In this document: one piece after another, positions 10,020 to 31,881 of the stretch | Numbering within the stretch: position 1 is the stretch's first letter | Layout of the letters: the number at the start of each line of letters is the position of its first letter | Assembly (NCBI RefSeq): GCF_003732545.1 | Contig: NZ_AYKF01000067.1 | Span: forward strand, 1 to 57,349 | Length of the DNA stretch: 57,349 bases | DNA from: Salinisphaera orenii subsp. halophila YIM 95161 | GTDB lineage: Bacteria > Pseudomonadota > Gammaproteobacteria > Nevskiales > Salinisphaeraceae | Direction of reading: 5' to 3' | The notes under the pieces: model-generated | Seen by the model: the letters and a program-made list of their open reading frames with translations, nothing else | Told to the model about the DNA's origin: nothing | Databases searched by the model: none | Position numbers and translations under genes: made by a program

Positions 10020-10573
10020 TCGAGGACATCTACAAGGATACCCAGCAGCGCATGGACAAGACCATCAGCGTCATGCGCGACAATTTCAGCAAGATCCGCA
10101 CCGGTCGGGCGAGCACGAGCCTGCTCGATCACGTGACCGTCGACTACTACGGCACCGAAGTGCCGATCAATCAGGCCGCCAACGTGTCCGTCGAGGATGC
10201 GCGCACGATCACGATCCAGCCGTGGGAGAAGTCCATGGTGAGCAAGATCGAGAAGGCGATCATGGGCGCGGATCTCGGTCTCAATCCGTCGACGGCAGGC
10301 GAAGTCATCCGCATCGTGCTGCCGCCGTTGACCGAGGAGCGCCGCAAGGACCTGGTCAAGGTGATCCGGGCCGAGGCCGAGGATGCGCGGGTCGCGGTCC
10401 GCAACGTGCGTCGCGATGCCAACGCCACGGTCAAGGAGCTGCTCAACGACAAGGACATCAGCGCCGACGACCAGCATGCCGCTGAGGCGCATATCCAGAA
10501 GCTGACCGATCAGCACGTCGCCCGCATCGATAGCCTGCTCCAGGACAAGGAGCAGGAAATCATGACGGTTTGA
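10016..10573 (+). CDS. frr: Ribosome recycling factor
   Basis: Works with EF-G to split post-termination ribosomes. Its 185 residues are the family's exact length. Typical segments: KIRTGRAS (about 27-34), the [20 protein letters not shown] domain, the IQPWEKS motif, [11 protein letters not shown] and [14 protein letters not shown]. The ATG overlaps the pyrH stop codon by 4 bases, giving translational coupling. The gene order pyrH-frr is universal in gammaproteobacteria. Confidence 0.98.
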
Positions 10574-10596
10574 GCCATCACGCGGACGTCGCTGCC

Positions 10597-11319
10597 ATGA
10601 CTGTTCCCGAACATGTGGCCGTCATCATGGACGGCAACGGCCGCTGGGCGAACGCGCGTGGTCTGCCGCGCGCCGCCGGTCATCGGGCGGGCGCGCGCGC
10701 GGCCCGGGCGATCGTCGAGAGCGCCCGCGAGACCGGTATCCGGGTGCTGACGGTCTTCGCCTTCTCCAGTGAGAACTGGCAGCGTCCGCGTGCGGAAGTC
10801 CGGCTGCTGCTGGACCTGTTTCGCCGGACGATCCAGCGCGAGCTCGGTTCGCTCCACGACAACAACGTGCGCCTGAGTTTCATCGGCGAGCGCGACCATT
10901 TCTCCGCCGGCTTGCAGCGCGCCATGGAGACCGCGGAGACGCGCACGCGCGACAACGACGGTCTCGATCTGGTCGTTGCGGTCGACTTCGGCGGACGCTG
11001 GGACGTGGTGCGCGCCGCCCGCGAGATGGCGCGCGACTGCGCGGCCGGACGGCTGGATCCCGATGGCATCACGGAAGCGGTGTTCGGCCGCTATCGCAGC
11101 CTGGCGCACGTGCGCGAGCCCGATCTGTTCATCCGCACGGGCGGCGAGCGCCGGATCAGCAATTTCCTGCTCTGGGATCTTGCTTACAGCGAGCTCTACT
11201 TCACCGATCGTCTCTGGCCGGACTTCGATCGCGAGGCGCTGGAGGAAGCGATCGACTGGTATGCCCGCCGCGAGCGGCGCTTCGGTCGGTTGCCGGAGGC
11301 GGCCGCACCGGGCCGCTGA
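10597..11319 (+). CDS. uppS: Undecaprenyl diphosphate synthase (cis-prenyltransferase)
   Basis: Adds isopentenyl units to farnesyl-PP to make the C55 lipid carrier for peptidoglycan and O-antigen. It has 240 residues from ATG 10597. A TTG at 10570 that overlaps the frr stop would add nine residues. Family motifs: IMDGNGRWA with catalytic Asp12, FAFSSENW, NYGGRWD-like FGGRWD, PDLFIRTGGERRISNFLLW and ELYFTDRLWPDFD. It needs IPP and FPP, so an isoprenoid precursor pathway must exist in the cell even though dxr and ispD/ispF are missing from their usual neighbourhoods here. It is followed two bases later by cdsA. Confidence 0.97.
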   Translation: MTVPEHVAVIMDGNGRWANARGLPRAAGHRAGARAARAIVESARETGIRVLTVFAFSSENWQRPRAEVRLLLDLFRRTIQRELGSLHDNNVRLSFIGERDHFSAGLQRAMETAETRTRDNDGLDLVVAVDFGGRWDVVRAAREMARDCAAGRLDPDGITEAVFGRYRSLAHVREPDLFIRTGGERRISNFLLWDLAYSELYFTDRLWPDFDREALEEAIDWYARRERRFGRLPEAAAPGR

Positions 11320-11321
11320 GC

Positions 11322-12152
11322 ATGCTGGCCACGCGAATCGCGACCGCGGCCGTGGTGGTGCCCATCGCGGTCCTGGGCATGCTGTTTCTGCCGACCGGCG
11401 CGATCGCGCTCGTATTCTCGGCGCTGATGCTGCTCGGCGCCTGGGAATGGGGCGGCCTTGTGCGCCTCGAGACCACCGGTCGCGGTGTGTTCGTCGCGGT
11501 CGTTGCTGCGGTGATGGGCTTGGTCTTGCTTCTGCGCAACGCGCCGCTGCCGGTGAGCGCGGAACTGTTCGTGATCGGTCTGGCATGCCTTTGGTGGCTG
11601 GCCGCGATCGCCTGGATCGTGCGCTACCCGCAGGGCTGGTCCGACGTGCTTGGCCGCCTCGGCCCGGGTGCGGCCGTCGGCGTCGTCGCGCTGGTTGCGC
11701 CGGTCGCTGCGGTGACCTATCTGCACCAGAGCGACGACGGCGTGCTGTTGCTGCTGACGTTGTTCGTGCTCGTCTGGACGGCGGACACCGGCGCCTATTT
11801 CGCCGGCAAGGCCTTTGGCCGCCACAAGCTGGCGCCGCGCGTCAGTCCGGGCAAGACGATCGAGGGCGCTGTGGGCGGTCTGGTCGCCGCCATGATCATG
11901 GGCGCTGCGGCCGCATGGCTGCTCGGTTACGGCGGTGGGCGTACAATCGCCTTCATGGTGCTGGCCGGCTGGGTCGCGGCCGTTTCGATAGTCGGCGATC
12001 TCACGATCAGCATGTTCAAGCGACACGCACAGCGCAAGGACAGCGGTATGCTGTTTCCGGGCCACGGCGGCGTGCTGGACCGTCTCGACAGCGTGCTCGC
12101 GGCCGCGCCGTGGTTTGTTGCCGGGCTGCACTGGCTGCCGGCGCAGGTCTAG
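11322..12152 (+). CDS. cdsA: Phosphatidate cytidylyltransferase CdsA
   Basis: An inner-membrane enzyme that makes CDP-diacylglycerol from phosphatidate and CTP, the branch point of phospholipid synthesis. It has 276 residues with about eight hydrophobic segments. The full family signature is present at 230-256: SMFKRHAQRKDSG followed by GHGGVLDRLD. Other conserved stretches are WTADTGAYFAGKAFGRHK and SPGKTIEGAVGG. It starts two bases after uppS. In most gammaproteobacteria with this order dxr would follow. Here a 105-base gap leads straight to rseP. Confidence 0.97.
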   Translation: MLATRIATAAVVVPIAVLGMLFLPTGAIALVFSALMLLGAWEWGGLVRLETTGRGVFVAVVAAVMGLVLLLRNAPLPVSAELFVIGLACLWWLAAIAWIVRYPQGWSDVLGRLGPGAAVGVVALVAPVAAVTYLHQSDDGVLLLLTLFVLVWTADTGAYFAGKAFGRHKLAPRVSPGKTIEGAVGGLVAAMIMGAAAAWLLGYGGGRTIAFMVLAGWVAAVSIVGDLTISMFKRHAQRKDSGMLFPGHGGVLDRLDSVLAAAPWFVAGLHWLPAQV

Positions 12153-12257
12153 CTGCAATCGGGAATTTTCGTCACCGAGGGATCATGTCGGCAGCGCCGC
12201 GGTCGAAGGCCGTGACGCCGTGCCGCGCATCGCCGTTCACAGGGAGCATCAAAACGC

Positions 12258-13619
12258 ATGTCTGACTGGCTGATGTCGGTACCGGCATTCATCGTGGCGA
12301 TCGGCATCCTCGTCGCGGTCCACGAATACGGCCACTTCTGGGTCGCGCGTCGGATGGGCGTGAAGGTGCTGCGGTATTCGATCGGCTTCGGCACGCGTAT
12401 CTGGGGCTTCACCGGTCGCCGTTCCGGAGTCGAGTACTGGCTGTCGGCGATTCCGCTGGGCGGTTACGTCAAGATGCTCGACGAGCGGGAAGGGGCGGTC
12501 GCCGAATCGGAGAAGCCCTACGCCTTCAACCGACAGCATCCGGCCAAGCGGATCGCCATCGTCGCCGCGGGCCCGGGCGTCAACTTCCTGTTCGCCATTC
12601 TGGCCTATTGGTTCGTGTTCATGATCGGCGTCGCCGGCATCAAGCCGGTGATCGGTCCGGTCGCCGACGGCACGCTGGCGGCGGCCTCCGGCCTGCAGGC
12701 CCGGGACGAGATCGTGGCGATCGACGACCGTGCGGTGGGTGACTGGCAGGAGCTGCGCCTGACGCTGCTCGACCGTGGCCTCGACGGCGATCCGATCACC
12801 CTCGATGTGGCGCGTCCGGACGCGGGTCGACGCTCGATCACCATCGATCTGAGCAGCGCGCCGTCCGATCCGGAAGCGCTGTTCGAACGCCTGGGGCTCG
12901 CCCCCTACCAGCCGCCGGCGACGCCGCGGATCGCGGGCGTGGTCGACGATTCCCCCGCGGCACGGGCGGGTCTCGAGAGCGGGGATGATGTCACGGCCAT
13001 CGACGGGCGGGCACTGGATTCGCCGCAGGCCCTGGTCGACTATGTCCAGGCGCGGCCGGGTGAACGCGTCGAACTGGACGTCACCCGCGACGGCGAACGG
13101 CTCACACTGCCGGTGACGCTGGCGCGGGTCGATAGCGACGACGGTGAGCCCCGCGGCCAGCTCGGGGCGCGCATCGGCGTCGATGCCGCGGCCTGGGATG
13201 CCATGCGCACCACGCGCCAGCTCGGCCCGCTGGCGGCGATTCCCGCCGCGGTCGACAAGACCTGGGAGGTCTCGGCGCTGACGGTGCGGCTGATGGCGCG
13301 CATGGTCACCGGCGATGTGTCCTGGCGCAACGTCAGCGGCCCCATTCAGATCGCCAACATCGCCGGTCAGACCGCGAGCGTCGGTCTGGAGGCGTTCGTC
13401 GGCTTCCTCGCACTGGTCAGCGTCAGTCTGGCGGTGCTCAACCTGTTGCCCGTCCCGGTGTTGGATGGGGGGCATCTTCTGTATTATTCGATCGAATGGA
13501 TACGGGGGCGGCCTCTGTCCGAGGCTGTACAGGTGGCGGGTCAGCAGGCGGGCATGGTTGCCCTGCTCATGCTCATGACTCTGGCTTTCTACAACGATAT
13601 CCTGCGCTTGCTCGGGTAG
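12258..13619 (+). CDS. rseP: Site-2 zinc metalloprotease RseP
   Basis: An intramembrane protease that cleaves anti-sigma factor RseA and remnant signal peptides. It has 453 residues. The zinc site HEYGHF (His22, Glu23, His26) lies in the first membrane segment and the third ligand region LDGGH near residue 402 in a C-terminal membrane segment. Two PDZ-like modules lie between (about 120-200 and 225-300), each with a GLQARDEIVAID- or GLESGDDVTAID-type core. GGGAG lies 8 bases before the ATG. It is followed 13 bases later by bamA, the normal envelope-stress pairing. Confidence 0.97.
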   Translation: MSDWLMSVPAFIVAIGILVAVHEYGHFWVARRMGVKVLRYSIGFGTRIWGFTGRRSGVEYWLSAIPLGGYVKMLDEREGAVAESEKPYAFNRQHPAKRIAIVAAGPGVNFLFAILAYWFVFMIGVAGIKPVIGPVADGTLAAASGLQARDEIVAIDDRAVGDWQELRLTLLDRGLDGDPITLDVARPDAGRRSITIDLSSAPSDPEALFERLGLAPYQPPATPRIAGVVDDSPAARAGLESGDDVTAIDGRALDSPQALVDYVQARPGERVELDVTRDGERLTLPVTLARVDSDDGEPRGQLGARIGVDAAAWDAMRTTRQLGPLAAIPAAVDKTWEVSALTVRLMARMVTGDVSWRNVSGPIQIANIAGQTASVGLEAFVGFLALVSVSLAVLNLLPVPVLDGGHLLYYSIEWIRGRPLSEAVQVAGQQAGMVALLMLMTLAFYNDILRLLG

Positions 13620-30430: not shown

Positions 30431-30494
30431 GATGACGCTGCGGGCCGATCTGCTGCGCGCTGGACAGCGCGCGCGGTCGCGCTACAATCCGAGC

Positions 30495-30818
30495 ATGTAT
30501 CGGATTGCCGTCATTGCGCTCGTGGTCGTGTTCGTCGGCCTGCAGTATCGGCTGTGGGTCGCGGACGGCGGCTGGTCGGAAGTGCATCGGCTGAGCCAGG
30601 AGCGCGCCGAGCTGGAGGAGCACAACGCCCAGGCCTCGAATCGCAACGCGGCGCTCCAGGCGGAGATCGACGACCTCAAGTCCGGCGAGCAGGCCACCGA
30701 GGGCCGTGCGCGCTCGGACATCGGCATGATCCGAAAGGACGAATCCTTCTTTCTCACCGTGGCGCCGCCCGGTCGCGACCAGACGTCGGCCGAAAAAGAC
30801 CGGCAGGCGGCCCGTTAG
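30495..30818 (+). CDS. ftsB: Cell division protein FtsB
   Basis: A bitopic inner-membrane protein that joins FtsL and FtsQ at the divisome. It has 107 residues from ATG 30495. The start at 30432 would add 21 residues before the membrane segment and is less like the family. One transmembrane helix (about 3-19, IAVIALVVVFVGLQYRLWV) is followed by a periplasmic coiled coil (about 30-72) with LQAEIDDLKSGEQATEGRAR and the conserved IGMIRKDESFFL. It follows eno as usual. The gene that normally follows, ispD, is absent: truD begins 31 bases after the stop. Confidence 0.93.
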   Translation: MYRIAVIALVVVFVGLQYRLWVADGGWSEVHRLSQERAELEEHNAQASNRNAALQAEIDDLKSGEQATEGRARSDIGMIRKDESFFLTVAPPGRDQTSAEKDRQAAR

Positions 30819-30849
30819 CATCGCACTCCTGACGGGCGATGCGGTTGAC

Positions 30850-31881
30850 GTGGCGGCGCTGGCGCATGCCCGCGGCACGCCGCCGCCGTGCCGCGGGCGG
30901 ATCCGCGTGGAGCCCGCGGACTTCCGGGTCGACGAGGACTGCGCCATCGAGCACACGGGCTCCGGCGAGCATTTGTGGTGCCGGATCGAGAAGACGGGCC
31001 TGACGACCCACGACGCCGTGCAGGCGATCTCGCGCCGTGCCGGCGTGCACCCGCGCCACATCGGAGTCGCCGGACTGAAGGACCGGCATGCGGTGACGCG
31101 GCAGTGGCTGTCGATCGCCTGGCCGGTGCACGATCCCCTGCCCGATCTCGACGACCTGCCGGGCGTGCGGATCGAATCCATGGTTCGTCACGAGCGCAAG
31201 CTCAAGCGCGGAGCGCATCGCGGCAACCGCTTCGTCATCCGGATCCGTGACCTGACCGGCGACACGGCCGCGCTGGACGAGGATATCCGGCGCGTGGCCG
31301 CGTGCGGCGTGCCGAATTATTTCGGGGCCCAGCGGTTCGGCCACGGCGGCCGCAACATCGGCCTGGCGCGTCGGCTGTTCGCCGGCCGGCGGCTGTCGCG
31401 CAACCGCCGCGGATTCGCCCTGTCGGCCGCCCGCTCGCTGCTGTTCAACGCGGTGCTGGACGCACGCGTGCGCGACGGCTCCTGGCAGCGGCTGCTCGAC
31501 GGCGAGGCGGTGATGCTCGATGGCAGCCACAGCGTCTTTTCGTTGGCCGAAACCGACCAGAGCGCCGATGAACTGGAAAAGCGGCTGGCGCGTTTCGATA
31601 TTCATCCCAGCGGCCCGATGGCCGGACGCGGCGGCGATGATGTGATCAGCGGCCGTGCACGTACGCTCGAACAGACCGTGCTGGGTGAGTACGGCGACCT
31701 GATGGCCGGACTCGAGCGTTGCGATGTGGACGCCGGGCGTCGCGCGCTGCGGCTTGCGGTACCATCGCTGGATTGGCAGTTTGAGGACGATGCAACGCTC
31801 GTCCTCTTGTTCTGGCTGCCGCCCGGTGCGTTTGCGACCAGCGTACTGCGCGAACTCGTCAACATCGGCGAACACGACTGA
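30850..31881 (+). CDS. truD: tRNA pseudouridine(13) synthase TruD
   Basis: Isomerises U13 of tRNA-Glu to pseudouridine. It has 343 residues from GTG 30850. The catalytic Asp78 is in VAGLKDRHAVTRQW. Other family segments are the ADFRVDE N-terminus, GVPNYFGAQRFGHGGRNI and RSLLFNAVLDARV. In most relatives ispF or ispD-ispF lies just upstream, and here only 31 bases separate it from ftsB. Downstream the gene meets an antisense pair instead of surE. Confidence 0.95.
   Translation: MAALAHARGTPPPCRGRIRVEPADFRVDEDCAIEHTGSGEHLWCRIEKTGLTTHDAVQAISRRAGVHPRHIGVAGLKDRHAVTRQWLSIAWPVHDPLPDLDDLPGVRIESMVRHERKLKRGAHRGNRFVIRIRDLTGDTAALDEDIRRVAACGVPNYFGAQRFGHGGRNIGLARRLFAGRRLSRNRRGFALSAARSLLFNAVLDARVRDGSWQRLLDGEAVMLDGSHSVFSLAETDQSADELEKRLARFDIHPSGPMAGRGGDDVISGRARTLEQTVLGEYGDLMAGLERCDVDAGRRALRLAVPSLDWQFEDDATLVLLFWLPPGAFATSVLRELVNIGEHD

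Follow-up and report, generated by a model that had tools for sequence, protein, structure and literature searches.

Does the absence of dxr from its place between cdsA and rseP in Salinisphaera orenii subsp. halophila YIM 95161 mean that the gene has moved, or that the whole MEP pathway to isoprenoid precursors has been replaced? The window, the entire stretch of 57,349 nucleotides analysed here, contains no N characters and carries frr, uppS, cdsA, rseP and bamA consecutively. Gene identities were assigned with NCBIfam models. On the + strand, uppS (10597..11319, TIGR00055), rseP (12258..13619, TIGR00054) and truD (30850..31881, TIGR00094) scored over the cut-offs of their models. Two further + strand genes, cdsA (11322..12152; best family NF008635, 171.4 bits against 385) and ftsB (30432..30818; NF002058, 97.1 bits, slightly under the cut-off of 101), fell under the curated cut-offs, yet these were their best matches and both genes are positioned as expected. 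The gene ends confirm the claim of an earlier, sequence-only reading that dxr is missing from both of its possible slots. Only 105 bp (12153..12257, assigned to neither strand) separate the end of cdsA at 12152 from the start of rseP at 12258, and 23 bp (10574..10596, likewise unstranded) separate the end of frr at 10573 from the uppS ATG at 10597, a junction that we take to be the E. coli-type dxr slot. The ispD-ispF slot, reported as empty by the same reading, is reduced to 31 bp (30819..30849, unstranded) between the end of ftsB at 30818 and the start of the truD frame at 30850. As also claimed, uppS, a consumer of isoprenoid precursors, is retained despite the loss of the MEP genes.

These slots are ancestral: the dxr-bearing relatives examined have MEP genes where the window is empty. 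In G057, a dxr-bearing genome of the same order, the genes run rpsB-tsf-pyrH-frr-uppS-cdsA-dxr-rseP-bamA-skp-lpxD and, farther along, kdsA is followed by ftsB-ispD-ispF and then surE. The truD of the window had no match in the G057 stretch; the E. coli order is ftsB-ispD-ispF-truD. In G034, a genome of genus g10 without dxr, the cdsA and rseP frames lie about 75 bp apart, ispD still follows ftsB (L157:15162-15947) and no IspF match was found within the stretch. Strong ispD matches (E <= 1.4e-34) occur in 12 of the 18 g10 genomes and in both g13 genomes, all of them mevalonate genomes, and none of these ispD-bearing genomes has a strong match to the IspF half; dxs is also kept in 17 of the 18 g10 genomes. 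Immediately after ispA, dxs is found in the dxr-bearing G018 and is absent from G006, which belongs to the genus of the window; tblastn detected no dxs remnant after ispA in G006 (best E 7.2, in L170).

The genome assembly (G000; 3,791,007 bases in 153 contigs, completeness 98.66, contamination 0.35) was searched for the seven MEP genes with seven models, and positive controls were included in every search. No match was obtained for dxr with two models, for ispG or ispH with their models, or for dxs with PF13292. The ispD/ispF model gave two weak matches (E 1.7e-6 and 4.3e-6), both confined to the IspD half and leaving the IspF half unmatched. One is GlmU (over the TIGR01173 cut-off); the other is MocA-like, its best model being molybdenum cofactor cytidylyltransferase, under the cut-off of that model. 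PF00288, positive in 14 of 14 control genomes, retrieved three GHMP proteins from G000, and all three lie within the mevalonate cluster described below; therefore G000, the one genome searched for this gene, has no ispE. All seven genes, dxs, dxr, ispD, ispE, ispF, ispG and ispH, are thus absent from the genome as a whole.

A mevalonate gene set was found instead, on two small contigs. Contig C139 (7456 bp) carries, in this order, mvaD, a phosphomevalonate kinase (PMK) candidate, a fusion of HMG-CoA reductase (HMGR) with mevalonate kinase (MVK), and a type 1 idi; the 5' end of mvaD, with its first residues, is lost at the contig edge. An HMG-CoA synthase (HMGS) gene lies at the end of C127 (11296 bp; L150:9715-11187; PF01154 over cut-off). 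On the related genome G006 the ends of C127 and C139 map 72 bp apart, and the HMGS gene therefore diverges from the operon; across its whole extent, C139 shows 96.7% identity with a segment of a 133 kb G006 contig. MvaD scored 281.3 bits with TIGR01240 (cut-off 171.35) and aligns to 5v2l with its catalytic stretches kept, and Idi exceeded the cut-offs of both NF002995 and TIGR02150. The PMK candidate aligns to 3k17 and reached 133.5 bits with its best model, TIGR01220, under the cut-off of 165.7. HMGS, a divergent form, remained under the cut-offs of all five NCBIfam models that it matched, and its catalytic stretches align to 5hwp, including what we take to be the catalytic Glu, Cys and His; the catalytic roles of the aligned HMGR and MvaD stretches are presumed in the same way. 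Each of the six steps, HMGS, HMGR, MVK, PMK, MvaD and Idi, has a candidate gene, as judged by homology. The replacement route that the sequence-only reading had proposed to look for is accordingly present as a full set from HMGS to Idi, with the PMK and HMGS candidates under their NCBIfam cut-offs.

The surroundings of the operon vary among relatives. Neighbours of the Salinisphaera operon include hopanoid-associated genes and a phosphonopyruvate decarboxylase-like TPP enzyme (L004:5319-7455; L151:812-4290; L171:1868-6684). In G006, the interval separating the mevalonate operon from ispA contains HpnM, the phosphonopyruvate decarboxylase-like gene and HpnG (both Hpn matches under their cut-offs). 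HpnH lies on that side of the operon in G012 and G016, as does HpnB in G016; the stretches fetched from these two genomes yielded no ispA. In G001, ispA immediately follows idi. This genome (L153) has the fusion operon, and neither the PF01154 search nor the fetched 19 kb revealed an HMGS gene in it. From the arrangements in G006 and G001, the operon therefore lies beside ispA in two family genomes examined, and in G018 it is dxs that adjoins ispA. Our guess is that the mevalonate operon landed at the former dxs site.

The predicted fusion protein has 766 residues, with a putative class II HMGR as its N-terminal half and a putative kinase as its C-terminal half. The HMGR half scored 405.9 bits with TIGR00532 (cut-off 259.95), and its catalytic stretches are kept in comparison with 6dio and 1qax. 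The MVK half (residues 464-739) scored 245.5 bits with TIGR00549 (cut-off 163.05), its identity resting on model scores and two patterns, SGxD and GxGGGG. In a set of 75 fused proteins, three of them from duplicate records, the HMGR patterns were conserved for Glu in 75, Lys in 74, Asp in 73 and His in 69, and the MVK patterns SGxD and GxGGGG in 73 and 75, respectively. Four sequences are outside the set: L045, which aligned as two separate pieces, L050 and L058, both truncated at contig ends, and L109. A third MVK pattern, GLGxSS, occurred in 29 of the 75; it is probably too narrow and was counted neither way. Among the 80 named loci listed, whose counts are not frequencies, 48 have the fusion in a single frame (two of these cut by a contig end), 23 have HMGR alone, eight, in Bacillaceae, have neighbouring separate HMGR and MVK genes, and one, in Myxococcaceae, has the two as separate genes. 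Among the open-access papers listed by a literature search, none had this HMGR-MVK fusion or mevalonate in Salinisphaera as its subject, judged by title.

The exchange extends well beyond one genome. None of the 17 genomes of the family has dxr, and all 17 have a fusion spanning both domains. Across the order, dxr was found in 47 of 85 genomes and ispH in the same 47; ispG was found in 46 of these (not in G018) and in G028. The fusion query gave matches at E <= 1e-10 in 38 genomes of the order, 36 of them strong; the other two, G048 (E 7e-11) and G079 (E 7e-12), are dxr genomes with weak GHMP matches only and were not counted. The 36 comprise the whole family (17/17), 17 of the 18 g10 genomes and both g13 genomes. 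Both domains are covered in an unbroken frame in 34 of them, including G039, whose sequence ends at residue 702 on a contig edge; the G030 fusion has one internal stop, and the G044 match, at a contig edge, covers residues 11-297 only. No genome of the 85 has both dxr and the fusion, and two have neither: G028 (76% complete), probably a MEP user because ispG and dxs are present, and G031 (88% complete). This mutual exclusion gave a Fisher p of 5.6e-22, with genomes counted as independent despite their shared descent. HMGS was found in 35 of the 85 genomes, all within the 36 with the fusion, G001 being the exception. In an even sample of 369 genomes of the class, 28 matched at E <= 1e-40, and nine of these covered both domains, three of the nine being from the genus of the window.

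Several database records overlap with these genomes. L046 (NZ_JAGHQU010000003.1), named Endozoicomonas sp. G2_2, is identical to G014 (100% over 5292 bases), and since G014 is placed in the genus of the window, the Endozoicomonas name is probably wrong. A record of Salinisphaera sp. GH4 matches the locus of G015, likewise placed in that genus, at 100% over 5304 bases, and a Nevskia sp. MAG shares 5229 identical bases with G032.

Taken alone, the empty slots are compatible with MEP genes that have simply moved elsewhere in the genome. With the seven models finding no MEP gene in G000, the two weak IspD matches belonging to other enzymes, and dxr lacking in 17 of 17 family genomes, including G012, which is listed as one contig, relocation has become extremely improbable. 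A draft of 153 contigs with the mevalonate cluster on the small C139 (7456 bp) and C127 (11296 bp) could also be read as an assembly in which the MEP genes were left unassembled and the mevalonate contigs are foreign. We give this reading hardly any credence: the assembly is 98.66% complete with 0.35% contamination, both the dxr absence and the fusion recur throughout the family, and C139 corresponds at 96.7% identity to part of the much longer, 133 kb contig of G006. DXR-II is reported as an alternative in some bacteria (PMC3847144), and a partial MEP pathway running on it would account for a missing dxr; here such an enzyme would have nothing to work with, since dxs, ispE, ispG and ispH are absent as well, and the chance that it operates is negligible.

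We consider it very probable that the family as a whole has exchanged its isoprenoid precursor pathway, gaining a mevalonate operon and losing the MEP genes. Concerted MEP loss with replacement by mevalonate genes, as the sequence-only reading had suspected, is thereby upheld and widened: dxr is absent from 17 of 17 family genomes, two further genera are alike, HMGR and MVK are fused, and dxs is gone with PdxJ kept. We infer the direction of acquisition, the enzyme activities and the metabolic coupling through the fusion. An ancestor in Salinisphaera's family would have acquired the operon, and the MEP genes would have been lost, leaving no remnants at the slots that can be read cleanly. HMG-CoA would be made by HMGS and converted to mevalonate by the class II reductase that forms the N-terminal half of the fusion; the C-terminal kinase half would phosphorylate the mevalonate at once, drawing the reaction of a reversible class II reductase in the direction of synthesis. 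PMK, MvaD and Idi would then yield IPP and DMAPP for ispA and uppS.

The origin of the fusion was examined in a tree of 110 HMGR domains (107 different) built with a quick method; the fusion genomes G002, G030, G039, G041, G044 and G054 are outside it. The 78 fused rows all fall on the same side of a single branch (SH-aLRT 99), which is consistent with a single fusion event. Calditrichota, Acidobacteriota, Planctomycetota and Actinomycetota are represented among these rows, a spread that fits transfer of the fusion between phyla. Cryobacterium is the closest neighbour of the window's family (support 89), followed by rows of Planctomycetota and Acidobacteriota (SH-aLRT 82-89, not starred), and the rows from g10 and g13 fall with other gammaproteobacteria; a long branch sets the G003 fusion off from the other members of its family. 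HMGS, MvaD, PMK and fusion genes are present in Cryobacterium (Actinomycetota; L013, L030, L044, L045). The position of Cryobacterium next to Salinisphaera in the HMGR tree suggests transfer between phyla.

The placement of the fused rows on one side of one branch, together with the identical gene order and fusion in the family stretches, G053 and G035, would also fit one acquisition of the fused operon by the ancestor of the order, with later loss in the MEP lineages. Against it stand the separate groupings of the family with Cryobacterium, at the same unstarred supports of 82-89, and of g10 and g13 with other gammaproteobacteria, and an AU test that gave p 0.0116 against one clade of the 17 family rows, 15 f4 rows and two similar named rows, a clade taken without G003, with G002 outside the tree, and with its rows picked after inspection of the tree. 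A single acquisition thus appears unlikely, and the tree topology suggests two acquisitions within the order.

The loss of dxs raises a separate question about vitamin B6. PdxJ uses DXP (PMC7954711). Of the 85 genomes in the order, 84 have PdxJ, among them 17 of 17 of the family. In G000 it lies beside recO and rnc (G000:C24:38755-39456, L163; E 2.4e-95, over several NCBIfam cut-offs). Strong dxs matches occur in 45 of the 47 dxr genomes (not in G025 and G078), in 17 of the 18 g10 genomes and in G028; none occurs in the 17 family genomes, the two g13 genomes or G033. Nine weak family matches are transketolase or PDH E1 alpha, and the six weak matches in g13 (five) and G033 (one) are all PDH E1 alpha and not dxs. 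We had expected pdxJ to be lost alongside dxs, and the opposite was seen, with PdxJ kept throughout the family; G033, G053 and G054, mevalonate genomes of the order, also have PdxJ and no recognisable dxs. It is conceivable, and we propose it only tentatively, that vitamin B6 synthesis in the family draws on DXP formed without DXP synthase, via another enzyme or a side activity. The phosphonopyruvate decarboxylase-like TPP enzyme was considered as a DXS substitute and given little weight: the enzyme beside the G016 operon is over the phosphonopyruvate decarboxylase cut-off, and the enzyme is unmatched in the G001 stretch. Known DXS bypasses include the MTA-isoprenoid shunt, AceE or RibB mutations and YajO overexpression, and for 172 of 181 candidate species without Dxs the mechanism is described as open (PMC10663253).

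Salinisphaera is a free-living, salt-loving genus. The order offers a natural experiment, in which relatives differ in an entire precursor pathway and the old genes are gone from known slots; the g10 genus, which mostly retains dxs and often ispD, is part of it. For isoprenoid engineering, the reductase-kinase fusion offers two steps ready-made in one enzyme, and PdxJ without dxs points to a DXS-independent supply of DXP, an open question in print (PMC10663253). With PMK and HMGS under their cut-offs, annotation surveys that require every gene to exceed its cut-off may score the pathway as incomplete. Bacterial mevalonate pathways are already known; this case stands out by its fused enzyme, by an exchange that probably took place more than once in the order, and by the retention of PdxJ in the absence of DXS.

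In its clustered genes and its candidate for each step from HMGS to Idi, with HMGR, MVK, MvaD and Idi over curated cut-offs, the Salinisphaera system resembles the classical bacterial mevalonate pathway; it differs in joining HMGR and MVK in one polypeptide and in its divergent HMGS and PMK, which score under the cut-offs. The Bacillaceae clusters (Oceanobacillus, Virgibacillus and relatives; eight among the 80 loci listed) likewise have adjacent HMGR and MVK with MvaD and PMK, but there the two are separate genes. Over residues 12-432 the fusion aligns to residues 4-422 of the 428-residue chain of 1qax (412 bits), which we take to be the class II HMG-CoA reductase of Pseudomonas mevalonii. 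That enzyme is catabolic, whereas the Salinisphaera enzyme is fused to MVK and lies in a biosynthetic operon. In a survey of 4,249 species, 82.94% were assigned to MEP and 12.03% to MEV; the words 'gammaproteobacteria', 'pseudomonadota' and 'fused' were not found in the main text of this review, whose supplement may score Salinisphaera (PMC13001223). Legionella provides another case of mevalonate genes in a gammaproteobacterium, and according to that review, the Legionella species analysed lack PmvK and most lack HmgS (PMC13001223), whereas Salinisphaera has a candidate for each, within the operon or next to it.
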